The position numbers and the translations under genes are program-made. DNA of 64,000 bases from Terriglobia bacterium (lineage in GTDB: Bacteria; Acidobacteriota; Terriglobia; Terriglobales; Acidobacteriaceae): assembly GCA_020073665.1 (NCBI GenBank), contig JAIQEU010000012.1, positions 62,001 through 126,000 of the forward strand, in the 5' to 3' direction. This document shows, in pieces, positions 2,864-8,962 of the stretch; within the stretch, counting starts at the first letter, position 1, and each line of letters opens with the position of its first letter. The notes below the pieces were generated by a model. The model was given only the letters and a program-made list of their open reading frames with translations. It ran no database searches and was not told the origin of the DNA.

Positions 2864-4204
2864 ATGTCTAAGCGGAATTTGTGGATCGTAGTGGTCGCGC
2901 TGGTTGCAGTGGCGTGTGGGCTCATGGCCGTTCCATCGTTTGCCGATTCGCAGGCGCGCATTGTGCGATTGAGCAGCGTCGAAGGGGACGTGCAAATCGA
3001 TCACAACGCCAGCCAAGGCTACGAAAAAGCATTTCTGAATCTGCCCATCACCCAGGGAGCCAAACTGCGTACCGGTGTGGATGGACGCGCGGAAGTCGAA
3101 TTCGAGGATGGCAGCACCATCCGCATCACGCCGAACAGCGTAGTTGAATTCCGGGAACTCGCGCTGCGCGATTCCGGCGGCAAGCTTTCGACCGTCTACC
3201 TGCAGGAAGGCACCGCATACCTGAATTTCACCGCCGCCAAGGATGACGAGTTCACGCTGAATTTCGGGCACGAGAAACTCTCACTCATCAATGCAGCGCA
3301 CCTGCGGGTGCGGATGGGCGATACGGATGCTTCCCTGGCAGTGTTCAAGGGTGATGTCAGCGTTGCCGGCCCGTCCGGAACGGTGCAGGTTGGGAAAAAG
3401 GAATCGGCCACTTTTGACCTGGCCGATCAGGACAAATACACCGTGGCCAAGAATCTGGAAGAAGATCCCTACGACGCCTGGGACAAACAGGCGGCGGATT
3501 ATCACCAGCGGTACATGGCCAGCAGCAGTTCTTACAGCAGTTACTCGCCCTATGCCTATGGCACCAGCGACCTGAATTACTACGGCAACTTCATGAACGT
3601 GCCCGGCTACGGAAACATGTGGCAGCCATACTTTACGGGCGCGGGTTGGGATCCCTTTCAGAATGGTGCATGGGGTTACACTCCGGGCTTCGGTTACGGA
3701 TGGGCTTCCGCGTATCCATGGGGATGGACGCCCTATCACACTGGATCATGGGTATTCGTTCCGGCTTATGGATGGTTGTGGCAGCCGGGCGGCTCATGGT
3801 CTGGCTTGGCCATACCTCGAGTAGTGAATCCTCCGGGACACTTCGTAGTTCCTCAGCCGCCGGCGACTGGGCACAACACCGTCGTGGTCGGTCGGCCCGT
3901 GGCAGGCACGCCGGTGGTGAATCCGCACACAGTTGTCATTCAGAATGGCTCCGCGGGCTTGGGAGTTCCAAGGGGCACGATAAAGAACCTGGGCAAGCTC
4001 GACCAGCAAGTTCGGCAGGCGGGCTCGGCGACAGCAACCGTTCACACTACTGTTGTCAGACCGGTCAGCCCGATGGCAATAGGTGCGAATTCGGCGCCGC
4101 ATTCCGGTGCGCCGCATTCGGGCTCGCCGCGTATGAGCAGCCCTTCGCACTCGGCTCCGGCTCCGCACTCGACGCCGCACGCGAGCATGCCGCCGCACCA
4201 CTAG
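2864..4204 (+). CDS. FecR-domain exported protein with Tyr/Trp/Gly-rich and His/Pro/Ser-rich C-terminus
   Basis: A 446-residue exported protein. Residues 1-28 form a signal peptide ending ...PSFADS. Residues about 32-190 match a FecR-type beta domain (VEGDVQID, then LRTGVDGRAEVEFEDGSTIRI). The middle (about 215-310) is rich in Tyr, Trp and Gly with repeated YG/W motifs, and the C-terminal 60 residues are a low-complexity His/Ser/Pro/Ala tail. In the classical system FecR is an anti-sigma regulator, but this one has no transmembrane sigma-binding N-terminus and no sigma factor beside it, so a cell-surface or matrix role is more likely. GGGAGA precedes the ATG. A strong terminator follows at 4230-4252, making this a single-gene unit. 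Confidence 0.8.
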   Translation: MSKRNLWIVVVALVAVACGLMAVPSFADSQARIVRLSSVEGDVQIDHNASQGYEKAFLNLPITQGAKLRTGVDGRAEVEFEDGSTIRITPNSVVEFRELALRDSGGKLSTVYLQEGTAYLNFTAAKDDEFTLNFGHEKLSLINAAHLRVRMGDTDASLAVFKGDVSVAGPSGTVQVGKKESATFDLADQDKYTVAKNLEEDPYDAWDKQAADYHQRYMASSSSYSSYSPYAYGTSDLNYYGNFMNVPGYGNMWQPYFTGAGWDPFQNGAWGYTPGFGYGWASAYPWGWTPYHTGSWVFVPAYGWLWQPGGSWSGLAIPRVVNPPGHFVVPQPPATGHNTVVVGRPVAGTPVVNPHTVVIQNGSAGLGVPRGTIKNLGKLDQQVRQAGSATATVHTTVVRPVSPMAIGANSAPHSGAPHSGSPRMSSPSHSAPAPHSTPHASMPPHH

Positions 4205-4229
4205 ACTTGAAAGCTAGTTATGAACCAAG

Positions 4230-4252
4230 GGCGGCTTCGGCCGCCTTTTTTT
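4230..4252 (+). terminator. Rho-independent terminator after the FecR-domain gene
   Basis: GGCGGC (4230-4235), a TTCG tetraloop, GCCGCC (4240-4245) and then seven T. This is a textbook intrinsic terminator 25 bp after the stop codon at 4204. Confidence 0.93.
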
Positions 4253-4280
4253 GTGGAAATCGGGTCTGTTTTTTGGGCTC

Positions 4281-4296
4281 GTTCTGCTTTCGGAAC
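4281..4296. promoter_or_regulatory. Inverted repeat, copy 1 (putative operator)
   Basis: GTTCTG-CTTT-CGGAAC: 6-bp arms with one mismatch. It lies 85 bp before the start of the first Asp-box gene and 15 bp before a plausible -35 box. The same element recurs at 5787 and 7310. Confidence 0.55.
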
Positions 4297-4311
4297 AAGA
4301 AAGAAAAGTCG

Positions 4312-4339
4312 TTGTGTTGGGTGCGAATGGGTGTAATGT
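4312..4339 (+). promoter_or_regulatory. Candidate promoter of first Asp-box gene
   Basis: TTGTGT (4312-4317), 16-bp spacer, TAATGT (4334-4339). The arrangement is conserved in the duplicated copy upstream of the second paralogue. Confidence 0.4.
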
Positions 4340-4381
4340 ATCTTGCCCCTGTAAGGGGTTCCGTCGGAGTGGGAGGCAGTT

Positions 4382-5743
4382 ATGGGAGCGTCGTGCAAAC
4401 TTAAGAATGGGTTCTTTGTACTCATCGTTTTGACCTGCTGCTCCCTAGCCCATGGCCAGCTGACCGCCGCGACTAACGCAGGCAAGCCTCCCAACACGCT
4501 TACCTGCAGCCCAGCGCCGTGCGCCTTGCCCAATGTGCAGGTGGATGATCTGACGTATGGGGGTGAGCCAGGTGCGCTGGTGCCAAACCCCAACAGCACA
4601 AACGAAATGGTACTGGCTGCACATGATGCGAATTGCTTCTCAGACCAAGGCTTCTACTCCACAGCCGATGGCGGCTCTACGTGGTCGGCCCACAGCTGCA
4701 TCTTGAGCAATAACCCGGGGGGACAGCCCATCGTTGGCTACGATCTGAATAACAGAGTCTTTGGCGGCGGCAGCGACGACCTTGCTGCTATCCTTTTGCG
4801 CTATTCCGACAACAACGGTGTGCACTGGAGCCGGTCGAGGGTGGTGGATGCATCCCCTTTCGGCGTACTGTCCCCTCAAATTACTGTTGACACCTCTCTG
4901 TTCAGTCCGTTCGAGAACTCAATTTACGTTTACTCGGTTCATGGCGGCGTATCCGGTTTAGCAACGAGGGTGGTCGTCTCGCATTCCAGCGATGGTGGAA
5001 AACATTGGAAAGCTGTGCCCCTGGACCAATGGCAGATACCCAACTGGGACTCCTTCCCGAGACTGTCAGTGGGCGAGGATGGGACACTATATGCAACTTG
5101 GCTAAGATGCGACCGCCCACAGGGCGGGTTTTGCGTTAAAGATGCAGTTCCCATTCTTCTTTCAAAGTCCGTTGATGGAGGCATGAGCTGGACGCCGCCT
5201 TCGGTGATAGCCACCACGAACCTGGCTCCCGGCAACTGCCTCTATGGCTGCCTGCCCAATGCGAGATTAGTACTTGGCGTGCCCAATGACCCAGTCAACG
5301 CAGTGGTCGGCAGCGGCGCCACCGCGGGAGTCTACGTAGTTTTCTACAACTGGACCGGAACCCAGATGCAGGTTGAGGTTGTAACTTCGACCGATGGTGG
5401 GAAAACATTCGGTTCCCCGGTACCAGTGTCTAATTCCAATGTCGGCGATCAGTTTCTGTCCTGGATTTCTGCGGCACCGGACGGAACGATTGCCGTCTCC
5501 TGGATGGACCGACGAAACGACCCCGCAAACGCGATGTACCAGCCGTTTCTGGCCACGTCAGTGGATGGTCTGCACTTCAATCCTAGTTGGCAACTCTCGT
5601 CGCAACTTTCAGATCCGAACGCCTGGGGACTAATAATTGTGGAAACCGTGCCCAGCCTTTGGGTTGGAAACGCAGTGTATTCCACTTGGACTGATACACG
5701 CTCTGGACTTCCCCGGCCCGAGCTGGGGGGAGTGCAGTTTTGA
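4382..5743 (+). CDS. Secreted Asp-box (BNR) beta-propeller protein, paralogue 1
   Basis: A 453-residue secreted protein of the sialidase-like superfamily. An N-terminal signal peptide (hydrophobic core FFVLIVLTCCSLAHG) precedes the mature part. At least four Asp-box motifs are visible: TADGGSTW, SSDGGKHW, SVDGGMSW and STDGGKTF, spaced about one propeller blade apart, which indicates a six- or seven-bladed beta-propeller. Whether it is an enzyme (exo-sialidase or other glycosidase) or a binding protein cannot be told: I could not place the sialidase arginine triad. GGGAGG lies 5 nt before the ATG. The whole unit, including about 100 bp of leader, is duplicated immediately downstream (5787-7261). 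Confidence 0.8.
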   Translation: MGASCKLKNGFFVLIVLTCCSLAHGQLTAATNAGKPPNTLTCSPAPCALPNVQVDDLTYGGEPGALVPNPNSTNEMVLAAHDANCFSDQGFYSTADGGSTWSAHSCILSNNPGGQPIVGYDLNNRVFGGGSDDLAAILLRYSDNNGVHWSRSRVVDASPFGVLSPQITVDTSLFSPFENSIYVYSVHGGVSGLATRVVVSHSSDGGKHWKAVPLDQWQIPNWDSFPRLSVGEDGTLYATWLRCDRPQGGFCVKDAVPILLSKSVDGGMSWTPPSVIATTNLAPGNCLYGCLPNARLVLGVPNDPVNAVVGSGATAGVYVVFYNWTGTQMQVEVVTSTDGGKTFGSPVPVSNSNVGDQFLSWISAAPDGTIAVSWMDRRNDPANAMYQPFLATSVDGLHFNPSWQLSSQLSDPNAWGLIIVETVPSLWVGNAVYSTWTDTRSGLPRPELGGVQF

Positions 5744-5786
5744 TCGACGCCTCTTCCAGTCTGACTAAAGAACTCGCCTGTGCCTC

Positions 5787-5802
5787 GTTCTGCTTTCAGA
5801 AC
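5787..5802. promoter_or_regulatory. Inverted repeat, copy 2 (putative operator)
   Basis: GTTCTG-CTTT-CAGAAC, perfect 6-bp arms. It lies 85 bp before the start codon at 5888, the same distance as copy 1, and 44 bp after the preceding stop codon. Confidence 0.6.
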
Positions 5803-5817
5803 AAGAAAGAAAAGTTG

Positions 5818-5845
5818 TTGAGTTGGGTGCTAATGGGTGTAATGT
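5818..5845 (+). promoter_or_regulatory. Candidate promoter of second Asp-box gene
   Basis: TTGAGT (5818-5823), 16-bp spacer, TAATGT (5840-5845). It corresponds base for base in layout to 4312-4339, so the promoter was duplicated with the gene. Confidence 0.42.
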
Positions 5846-5887
5846 GTCTTGCCACTGTGAGGGGTTCGGTCGGAGTGGGAGGCAGTT

Positions 5888-7261
5888 ATGGGTGCGGCGT
5901 GCAAACTTAAGAATGTGTTCTTTGTACTTATCGTTTTGACCTGCGGCTCGCTGGCCCAGAGTCAAATGACCGCCGCGAATAACGCAGGCGGGTCCCCAAA
6001 CGTCCTTACTTGCAGCCCGGCGCCCTGCGTGTTGCCGATTGTGCAGGTGAGTAACTTGACGTACGGAGCGATACCAGCCCGCCTCGTGGCCAATCCTAAC
6101 AATTCAAGCGAAATGGTTTTGGGTACAGACGATGGGAACTGCGGCGGATCCGGTGAAGGGTTCTACTCGACCAGAGACGGCGGCTCCACGTGGCTGGGGC
6201 ATAGTTGCATCTCTCCCAGGGATTACCCCTTTGGTCTCGACATCGCCTACGATCTGAACAATAGGGTCTTCGCGGGCGCGGGCGACGGTGACGCTATCCT
6301 CACGCTGCGTTATTCCGACAACAACGGCGTGTTGTGGAGCCGGGCCAGGGTGTTGGGTGGATCGGGCTTGGGAGGCCCGGGTTCGCCCCGATTGGCTATT
6401 GATGCCTCACCGTCCAGTCCGTTCAAGAACTCCATTTACATGTCCTCAATTCACGACTGCTGCGGGGAAGGTGGTGGAGCTACGAGAGTGTTCGTCTTAC
6501 ATTCCAGCGATGGCGGACAACATTGGAAAAGTGTGCCCCTGGATCAATGGCAGCTTCCCAGCGTGGACGCCTTCCAGAGGTTGTCCGTGGGTGAAGACGG
6601 CATAGTGTACGTGACTTGGATGAGATGCAGCCGCCCACAGCTCGGGCCTTGCGTCAAAGATGGAGTTCCCATTTATCTTTCCAAGTCCGCAGACGGAGGC
6701 ATGACTTGGACACCGCCCTCCCTGGTCGCAACCACGAGTCTCGCGCCCGGCAACTGCCTGTTTGGCTGCATACCCAACGTAGGCGTTACTCCCATAGACA
6801 ACGAGCCAGTCATTACCGTAGTCGGCAGCGGCGGCACAGCGCGGGTCTACGTGGTCTTTTACAATTGGAGCGGAACCCAAATGCAGGTTGAGGTCGTGAC
6901 TTCAACAGACGGTGGGAAGACATTCGGCACCCCGGTTCGAGTATCCAATTCAGACGTGGGTGACCAGTTCGTTCCCTCGATTTCTGCCGCTCCGGACGGA
7001 ACGGTTGCGGTTTCCTGGCTGGACCGGCGCAACGATCCGGCAAATCTGAAATATCAGCCATTCCTGGCCACTTCGAAAGATGGCCAAGCCTTTGGAACCA
7101 ATTTTCTACTGACCTCGTACCAAACCGACCCCACGCCTTTCCTGGGCGGTGGAATTCCAGGCCCCCCCCCGGCCTTGTGGAAAGGCAGTGCGGCCTACTC
7201 CACGTGGACGGATGACAGCTTTGGGGATTTTCGAGCGAAACTGGGGGGAGTACAGTTTTAA
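5888..7261 (+). CDS. Secreted Asp-box (BNR) beta-propeller protein, paralogue 2
   Basis: A 457-residue close paralogue of the preceding gene, colinear along its whole length, with the same signal peptide pattern (FFVLIVLTCGSLAQS) and the same Asp-boxes in slightly changed form (TRDGGSTW, SSDGGQHW, SADGGMTW, STDGGKTF). The C-terminal 40 residues and the loops between boxes 1 and 2 differ most. Conserved Cys pairs (CSPAPC near residue 42; NCLFGC near 287) suggest disulfides in the exported protein. It arose by tandem duplication of promoter plus gene. Function is unknown beyond the beta-propeller fold; extracellular glycan or protein binding is an inference. Confidence 0.8.
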   Translation: MGAACKLKNVFFVLIVLTCGSLAQSQMTAANNAGGSPNVLTCSPAPCVLPIVQVSNLTYGAIPARLVANPNNSSEMVLGTDDGNCGGSGEGFYSTRDGGSTWLGHSCISPRDYPFGLDIAYDLNNRVFAGAGDGDAILTLRYSDNNGVLWSRARVLGGSGLGGPGSPRLAIDASPSSPFKNSIYMSSIHDCCGEGGGATRVFVLHSSDGGQHWKSVPLDQWQLPSVDAFQRLSVGEDGIVYVTWMRCSRPQLGPCVKDGVPIYLSKSADGGMTWTPPSLVATTSLAPGNCLFGCIPNVGVTPIDNEPVITVVGSGGTARVYVVFYNWSGTQMQVEVVTSTDGGKTFGTPVRVSNSDVGDQFVPSISAAPDGTVAVSWLDRRNDPANLKYQPFLATSKDGQAFGTNFLLTSYQTDPTPFLGGGIPGPPPALWKGSAAYSTWTDDSFGDFRAKLGGVQF

Positions 7262-7309
7262 CTAACCCCCTTTCCCTCTCTGGGTAATCACTCTCGCAAA
7301 AGATGTTTT

Positions 7310-7325
7310 GTTCTGATTTCAGAAC
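7310..7325. promoter_or_regulatory. Inverted repeat, copy 3 (putative operator)
   Basis: GTTCTG-ATTT-CAGAAC; here the symmetry extends to 9-bp arms (TTGTTCTGA / TCAGAACAA, 7308-7327). It sits 118 bp before the start codon at 7444 of an unrelated secreted protein, so the element is shared beyond the duplicated pair. Confidence 0.6.
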
Positions 7326-7443
7326 AAATTCAGGATTATTTACTCAAGTATCCGAACCCCTGCTATAAGTCCATTCGCGGCACCGTCTCGCCGCATTTCC
7401 CTGGGTGAGTTGTCTAATTCCACATTCGACGGGGGAGGTCCCG

Positions 7444-8962
7444 ATGCGAAAAACAGAACGCTTATTTCACGAGGTCACGCGAACCATCTGCCTTGCTCTC
7501 CACAACTTCTGCTCTCGCTCAGCAGGCTCCAACTTATTGGACCGCTCACACACCGCTTATCGAAGGAGATGATGTGTCTGGCGACAACTCTCAATATCAC
7601 TGTCCGCAGGGCACTCCTCCGATGTACAAGTGCCAATACAGAGGATCCCTCTACGGCCACTGGAGCGATGGCAGTAATCTACCAGATACGCAACATGACA
7701 CGTATGGCAGGAACCTGGCGACGAATGGTATATCTGCCAAGTGTCCGCCGTTTGATCCCACATGCAGCACCCACAGCCCAAGGATCGTAGTGGTGGCGAT
7801 CGGTTTCTCGAACTGGACGAAAGAGATGTGCGGCAACCAACCGACCCAGAATCAGGACGGAACATGGGAAATTAGTCACCAGGTACCGCTGCCTCCGAAG
7901 GCCTCGGATCTAAACTGCAGCCTTGACGACAACATCCCACCCAAGTCCGCGGCCTGGTCGTTCATCAACAAGGCGAAAATCAATCCCGACGTTAATCCCA
8001 GCTTAGTGTTTGTCGACTGCGCCGAAATTGGCGCGGTAGCGGGCGTTTGGCTGGACGATCACACTAACTTTCCACCACATATAAACACGGGCGCGTACAC
8101 GAATTGCAACAATATCCTGGCTAGGTGGCCTGGAGGGGGAATCGATCCCGCAGAGGTTCAGGTAGTCCTGCTGAAAAATGCCGATTCAGGGGAGACTGGA
8201 GCCCCCAATCCGCTGCCATTGGTGGAACTACCCAGTAGCGGTTTCTCGGGTTGTACCGGTATTGTTAGTACGCCATACGATGCCTGCATCCTGGAAGAGT
8301 ATCTGACACAGATTGCACAGAATTTACTCAAAGACCCACCGGGAGATACTTACAAGGTTTTCTCCGGGGTCAAGCAGCTATTCGTGCACACCCGGATTGA
8401 CGGCCACTATGCGAACCCAGACCCATTGGTGTCTCCGCTCAACCCTGAACCACACGCATATGAGACCGGCTTTGCCGTCAAGTGGCTGATCCAGGCACAA
8501 GTTGACGACGTTAATACCCCAGGAATCAGTCACGTATTCCCGGGCCCCCTGGACTACACGACTACTCCGCCTGAGGCTCCATGGATGGATTGGGGAGCAT
8601 ACATGTGGGCCTCGGACACGCGGATTCCGTGCCCGCATTGCCCGATTCCCAGCGTGCCGCAGCCTAACGCTACCCCTCTCACCTGGCAGCAGCAGGTTGC
8701 TGGGCCATCATATTGCGTCAGCGGCGGCTCCGGCCTAGAGTGCGATTTCCAAGCGAAGTCAGGCTCGCACACGGACAACACGCACCCGTCGCTCTGCGGC
8801 CGCAGTAAGACCTCGGACGAGATGATGTATTTCTTCTGCAATTCGCCCTACACGAAACCCTGGTTCACGGTGGCGGGCGGGGGGTGTACGGCGCAGCATG
8901 TTCCTGTACCGCAAGATAGTTGTGATGGCTTCGGGCAAGGAACCGATACCACGGGCGACTAA
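7444..8962 (+). CDS. Secreted protein, possibly SGNH-hydrolase-like; signal peptide split by a 1-base frameshift
   Basis: The main open frame (7493-8962, TTG at 7493) begins in the middle of a signal peptide (LLSTTSALAQQ). The missing first half lies in another frame: ATG at 7444, preceded by GGGGGAGG, encodes MRKTERLFHEVTRTICLAL. Joining the two by skipping one base near 7490-7500 gives a perfect signal peptide. So the gene has a one-base insertion, or the sequence has an error. The mature part is Cys-rich and shows IGFSN early, VQVVLLKNAD in the middle and an AYETGFAVKWLIQ stretch late; from memory of similar secreted proteins I suspect an SGNH-like fold, but this is weak. Terminator follows at 8987. 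Confidence 0.6.

Follow-up and report, generated by a model that had tools for sequence, protein, structure and literature searches.

A 20-bp palindrome found ahead of three consecutive genes is a regulatory box that stands at a fixed distance from the promoter in many soil Acidobacteriota and is most likely read by a protein that we call XRE-A. Computation on the genomes gave the motif and showed that it is mostly intergenic, that it is in excess across the family and that a -10 element follows it at a fixed distance. In the mechanism we propose, a dimeric transcription factor would bind the 20-bp box just upstream of sigma-70-type promoters. This factor would be XRE-A, a protein with a lysine-less LexA-like C-terminal domain, which would activate the box targets from a class-I-like position and, in many relatives, would also control its own gene and a convergent neighbour.

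The box and its copies in the window

The window, meaning the whole stretch of 64,000 nucleotides that was analysed, contains three boxes with the following surroundings.

4279..4298, forward strand: box 1, TCGTTCTGCTTTCGGAACAA, 83-nt gap to ATG 4382
4334..4339, forward strand: predicted -10 element TAATGT, 35 nt past box 1
4382..5743, forward strand: secreted BNR/Asp-box repeat protein 1, 453 aa, signal peptide, Pfam BNR_2 (E 2.5e-10)
5785..5804, forward strand: box 2, TCGTTCTGCTTTCAGAACAA, 83-nt gap to ATG 5888
5840..5845, forward strand: predicted -10 element TAATGT, 35 nt past box 2
5888..7261, forward strand: secreted BNR/Asp-box repeat protein 2, 457 aa, 66% identity to protein 1
7308..7327, forward strand: box 3, TTGTTCTGATTTCAGAACAA, matching the family-wide consensus in full
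7364..7369, forward strand: predicted -10 element TATAAG, 36 nt past box 3
7444..8962, forward strand: third gene, exported-type protein, ATG 7444 with a ribosome-binding site

The first-pass annotation had placed the shorter sequence GTTCTGN4CAGAAC at 4281, 5787 and 7310. The latter two copies are exact, whereas that at 4281 reads GTTCTGCTTTCGGAAC and has one mismatch; as a 20-mer, box 1 deviates by TC at its left end and by one mismatch in the right arm. The placement of copies 1 and 2 at 85 bp ahead of ATG 4382 and ATG 5888 was confirmed, as were the longer, 9-bp arms of copy 3 (TTTGTTCTG-ATTT-CAGAACAAA, 7307-7328). Boxes 1 and 2 lie inside a tandem duplication that shows 82% identity from just ahead of the box. 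Sequence comparison agrees that the third gene is unrelated to the first two, which supports the earlier view that the element was kept beyond the duplication. The statement that each copy precedes an exported protein holds for copies 1 and 2 but is less certain for copy 3, because ATG 7444 does not share the frame of the open reading frame that begins at TTG 7493. A strong ribosome-binding site, GGGGGAGG, accompanies this out-of-frame ATG. The frame break ahead of the main reading frame (TTG 7493-8962) falls in the signal-peptide region (7444-7500) and is either real or an assembly error. Pfam and NCBIfam gave no family above cut-off for the third gene. Directly upstream of the three genes is a gene for an exported FecR/DUF6600 protein (2864-4204) with a clear terminator at 4227-4248.

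The 5.42-Mb genome has three exact copies of the 16-mer GTTCTGN4CAGAAC, two of these in the window, and one copy of the reversed control sequence. Searching the genome for the core alone (GTTCNGN4CNGAAC) gave no excess (20 versus 18 for the control), and an excess appeared only once the flanks TTG...CAA were added. As matches with the extended flanks are in excess and those to the core are not, the real element is the 20-bp sequence TTGTTCNG-N4-CNGAACAA, which has an AT-rich centre. The family was searched for exact YTGTTCNGN4CNGAACAR in 100 related genomes with the reversed motif as control, and about 75 sites were found versus 6 for the control. The source genome (G000) has 7 versus 0, G007 has 16 versus 0 and G085 has 7 versus 1; other genomes have 5, 4 and 4, and many have none, so copy number is low (0-16 per genome). 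The flanks of the boxes are unrelated, and no further shared sequence was found in them. Predicted genes contain only 5 of 67 sites although they cover 74% of the loci according to a crude codon-usage gene finder; the motif is thus not as frequent within genes as upstream of them. Going by the loci recovered in a protein search, the lineage is Acidobacteriota, represented by Terriglobales-like metagenome bins. In G085 exact boxes occur in pairs 85-87 bp apart, or about eight helical turns (C2:135552/135639 and C12:54776/54861). A literature search for the motif or the regulator found no description of either among the papers covered.

These counts bear on the simplest alternative, that one duplication produced two copies of a chance palindrome and that the third is a coincidence. 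Copies 1 and 2 are indeed one duplicated promoter and the core shows no genome-wide excess, but copy 3 is a full match to a consensus found seven times in the genome versus none for the control, and its -10 element is at +36 as elsewhere in the family. We consider chance refuted.

Spacing to the promoter and the genes behind the box

The hexamer TANNNT begins exactly 36 nt past the box in 28 cases among 70 sites read in both orientations, versus about 1.3 at other offsets. When variant sites were added, it was present at +36 in 34 of 95 distinct sites ahead of unrelated genes versus about 1.6 expected, although the sites used to pick the offset also supplied its p value, and sites at orthologous genes are not independent of one another. 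Variant sites, which were found separately, again have their peak at +36/+37, which is a partial replication. The -10 element is exactly phased at only those 34 of the 95 sites. A composite of box, N36 and TANNNT with three mismatches gave 27/23 versus 21/18 for the control, little above background, and for this reason only matches with 0-1 mismatch were used. The sequence past the box is T-rich from +8 to +12 and has G at +13, which suggests a poor -35 element. Counting the first base of the -10 element as -12, the fixed 36-nt offset puts the predicted box centre near -58, close to the placement of class-I activators. The same fixed spacing supports the earlier estimate that the box lies about 50 bp before the transcription start.

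The spacing also speaks to whether the palindromes serve the upstream genes, as transcription terminators or RNA hairpins. Copies 2 and 3 are 44-49 bp past a stop codon, and on the minus strand copy 3 has a terminator-like score. However, none of the three copies is followed by a T-run on the plus strand (as the first-pass annotation had argued from the sequence), gene 2864-4204 has its own terminator at 4227-4248, boxes also occur between divergent genes (L070, L147 and L148), and the fixed spacing is to the downstream -10 element. Taken together, these points make this explanation extremely improbable.

Targets were taken to be the genes behind phased or close boxes. The idea of a small regulon of secreted proteins was not upheld: signal peptides, called by a crude rule, are no more frequent among phased targets (5/32) than in the background (31/198). 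Among about 23 BNR homologues only one has a box (G069:C11:112387), the two exact boxes of G069 both being at this locus, and no box was found upstream of the two C47 paralogues. Secreted BNR repeat proteins with a CSPAPC signature number about ten paralogues each in G069 and G116, some of them in tandem, and this is a lineage-specific expansion. The box targets of the source genome include, besides the two BNR genes and the third window gene, two genes for sigma-54 activators and a further one for an exported protein. About four of nine targets there encode exported proteins, as do several in G006, and a lineage-specific lean toward export is therefore possible. In G073 an exact box stands about 170 bp ahead of a gene whose protein resembles that of the third gene (C17:40429), but no phased -10 element accompanies it.

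The box controls a mixed gene set rather than secreted proteins only. Boxes precede genes encoding PilZ proteins (six), a sensor kinase, peptidoglycan enzymes of the GH25 and M15 types, an ORF6N protein and sigma-54 activators with GAF, FHA or receiver domains (twice in G000 and also in G073, G077 and G007). In G001 a box is 63 bp from the DprA gene, and in G007 one is 125 bp from the RecA gene, which was identified from reading the sequence. Other regulator genes behind boxes encode LuxR-type (L171), Trans_reg_C (L153/L316) and NtrC-type (L127) proteins. Some box positions are kept at orthologous genes of different genera: at the sigma-54 activator gene in G000, G073 and G077, at a gamma-carbonic-anhydrase/TonB-type pair in G001 and G007, and at a Trans_reg_C gene in G030 and G062.

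G007 also has boxes 50-110 bp upstream of about seven genes for Y1 IS200-like transposases, which differ from one another, as if under common control. The loci concerned, with IS200/RAYT-like genes, are L115, L117, L119, L120, L126, L129 and L130. This arrangement, together with the ability of the box sequence to form a hairpin, could be read as a repeat or mobile element between genes, such as a REP/RAYT hairpin or an IS200-type end. Such an element would not be expected to give the low copy number, the unrelated flanks, the exact 36-nt spacing to a -10 element ahead of unrelated genes and the orthologous positions kept between genera, and this reading is largely refuted.

XRE-A as the candidate reader of the box

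XRE-A came to attention through relatives in G003 (twice) and G085 that have a box ahead of their genes. The source genome encodes it at G000:C27:166984-167787, and it is present in 48 of the 100 genomes. The co-occurrence test, which counts 45 XRE-A genomes because weak matches were left out, showed XRE-A present in 20 and absent from 7 genomes with an exact box, versus 25 and 48 for the others (Fisher p 6e-4; p 0.007 within the family only). Boxes are also concentrated around XRE-A. Of the 49 exact boxes in genomes that carry it, six are no more than about 3 kb away from the gene (in G000, G073, G077, G003 twice and G085), whereas we estimate that about 0.15 would be expected. With a box called at a score of at least 11/14, 63 of 80 named Acidobacteriota XRE-A loci have a box within 350 bp upstream of XRE-A (control 4/80), and 37 have one ahead of the start of the convergent neighbour (control 1/80). 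Two boxes, near -220 and -110, are present at 26 XRE-A loci.

The boxes at XRE-A are often slightly different, with the form TTGTTACG-N4-CNGAACAA. This variant, searched for genome-wide as YTGTTCNGN4CGTAACAR, is found mainly in G006, where it accounts for 9 sites, 3 of them at XRE-A, and where the standard box is absent. The variant box of G006 is thus found both genome-wide and at XRE-A, indicating that the box and the regulator locus change together. Apart from G031 and G084, whose single variant sites have GC-only centres, all 12 genomes with variant sites carry XRE-A. The exact standard box is missing from 15 family members that have XRE-A, some of which carry the variant. In the source genome no good box was found at the XRE-A promoter itself; a near match, GTTTTCGGAAATCTGAACAA, stands immediately ahead of the ATG of the convergent neighbour, and a full box 2 kb from XRE-A precedes a sigma-54 activator gene. 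The convergent neighbour is a small conserved gene ('MTLKSALEDL...'; L067:1727-2137, minus strand; L232-L311). At many of the 80 loci its box coincides with the ATG or immediately precedes it, a placement that differs from that at the targets and is more like that of a repressor site. No Pfam or NCBIfam family was above cut-off for its product.

The structural model of XRE-A has an XRE helix-turn-helix (pLDDT over 90) followed by a LexA-like domain. Its best Foldseek matches are LexA (E 9.5e-7), and the VIA comparison with the LexA C-terminal domain gave Z 10.7 over 88 residues with an rmsd of 3.2. Residues 1-78 align to CI/XRE-type domains, the sole Pfam match being a sub-threshold one to HTH_31; no Pfam or NCBIfam family was above cut-off, and an XRE-A profile gave nothing better than E 0.1 against PDB sequences. 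In a manual fit to the lysine strand of E. coli LexA, the corresponding stretch of XRE-A is CCWC in nearly every member (C, C/S, W and C by position) and contains no lysine. The serine position is threonine in 24/29 and 34/36 sequences. With the catalytic lysine lost and the serine mostly threonine, XRE-A would not be expected to cleave itself, and another signal would be needed. Location and co-variation make XRE-A, in which the lysine is gone and the serine usually also lost, a strong candidate for the reader of the box. More tentatively, the position of the box suggests that XRE-A activates its targets, from a class-I-like position beside a poor -35 element.

A second LexA-like protein, XRE-B (L315:909-1625; G000:C34:4716-5426), has an intact catalytic motif (GMSMYP, TVKY) and is possibly the self-cleaving LexA-like repressor of the family. 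It was rejected as box reader, since it occurs in almost all of the family whether or not boxes are present and is absent from G085, which has seven boxes; at the two loci examined for a box, L315 and L313, none was found.

The same fixed-position box could instead be read by another regulator (an XRE/LexA-like protein, a response regulator or another factor), with XRE-A merely a target. No XRE-A was found in G007, which is 89% complete and has 16 boxes, or in G081, which is 85% complete and has 2, the half-site at XRE-A boxes often differs, and the LuxR-type, Trans_reg_C and NtrC-type genes also follow boxes. Against this, XRE-B fails as the alternative, and XRE-A, which is the family examined most deeply, has boxes at its own gene in most loci and changes jointly with the box in G006. 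We regard another reader as unlikely, and the earlier proposal of one regulator is supported. A broader form of the XRE-A reading is that a non-cleavable LexA-like XRE protein became a class-I activator throughout the family, using one promoter architecture to link functions in DNA recombination (RecA, DprA and Y1 transposases) to c-di-GMP through PilZ proteins, to sigma-54 activators and to exported proteins, with box and reader changing together between lineages. We put this forward tentatively, as the less probable part of the proposal.

Relation to known regulatory systems

Acidobacteriota are among the most abundant soil bacteria and, to our knowledge, their regulons have been little mapped. 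Here a motif with its exact promoter geometry can be put beside a candidate regulator, and hence a single binding experiment would identify targets across dozens of genomes. Among these targets are recA, dprA, the RAYT-like transposase genes and those of the BNR repeat proteins.

REP/RAYT systems likewise have small palindromes beside Y1 transposase genes, as in G007, but the box is low-copy, phased to promoters and without shared flanks. The XRE regulators DdrO, SinR and ComR share the helix-turn-helix fold with XRE-A (VIA Z 9.5-10 over 62-66 residues), and DdrO has weak sequence similarity to it (E 0.1). They differ in that the C-terminal domain of XRE-A is LexA-like and its box is another, and no IrrE-type protease or peptide partner was identified for XRE-A. 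CRP-type class-I activators, which are placed at about -61.5, resemble the proposed system in that their palindrome, too, keeps a constant position just upstream of a promoter whose -35 element is poor; the protein family, the motif and the box centre near -58 are different.

The likeness to LexA/SOS and to lambda CI-type repressors lies in the helix-turn-helix with a LexA/UmuD/CI-type C-terminal fold, in the palindromic box and in the presence of recA (G007) and dprA (G001) behind it. In contrast to LexA, the catalytic lysine is replaced by cysteine and, in most members, the serine by threonine; the helix-turn-helix aligns to XRE/CI-type domains, most box targets are not repair genes, and the site is upstream of the promoter in an activator-like position. 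If the proposal is correct, a LexA-fold activator devoid of the cleavage residues would be a useful example of a repressor fold that has taken on another role.
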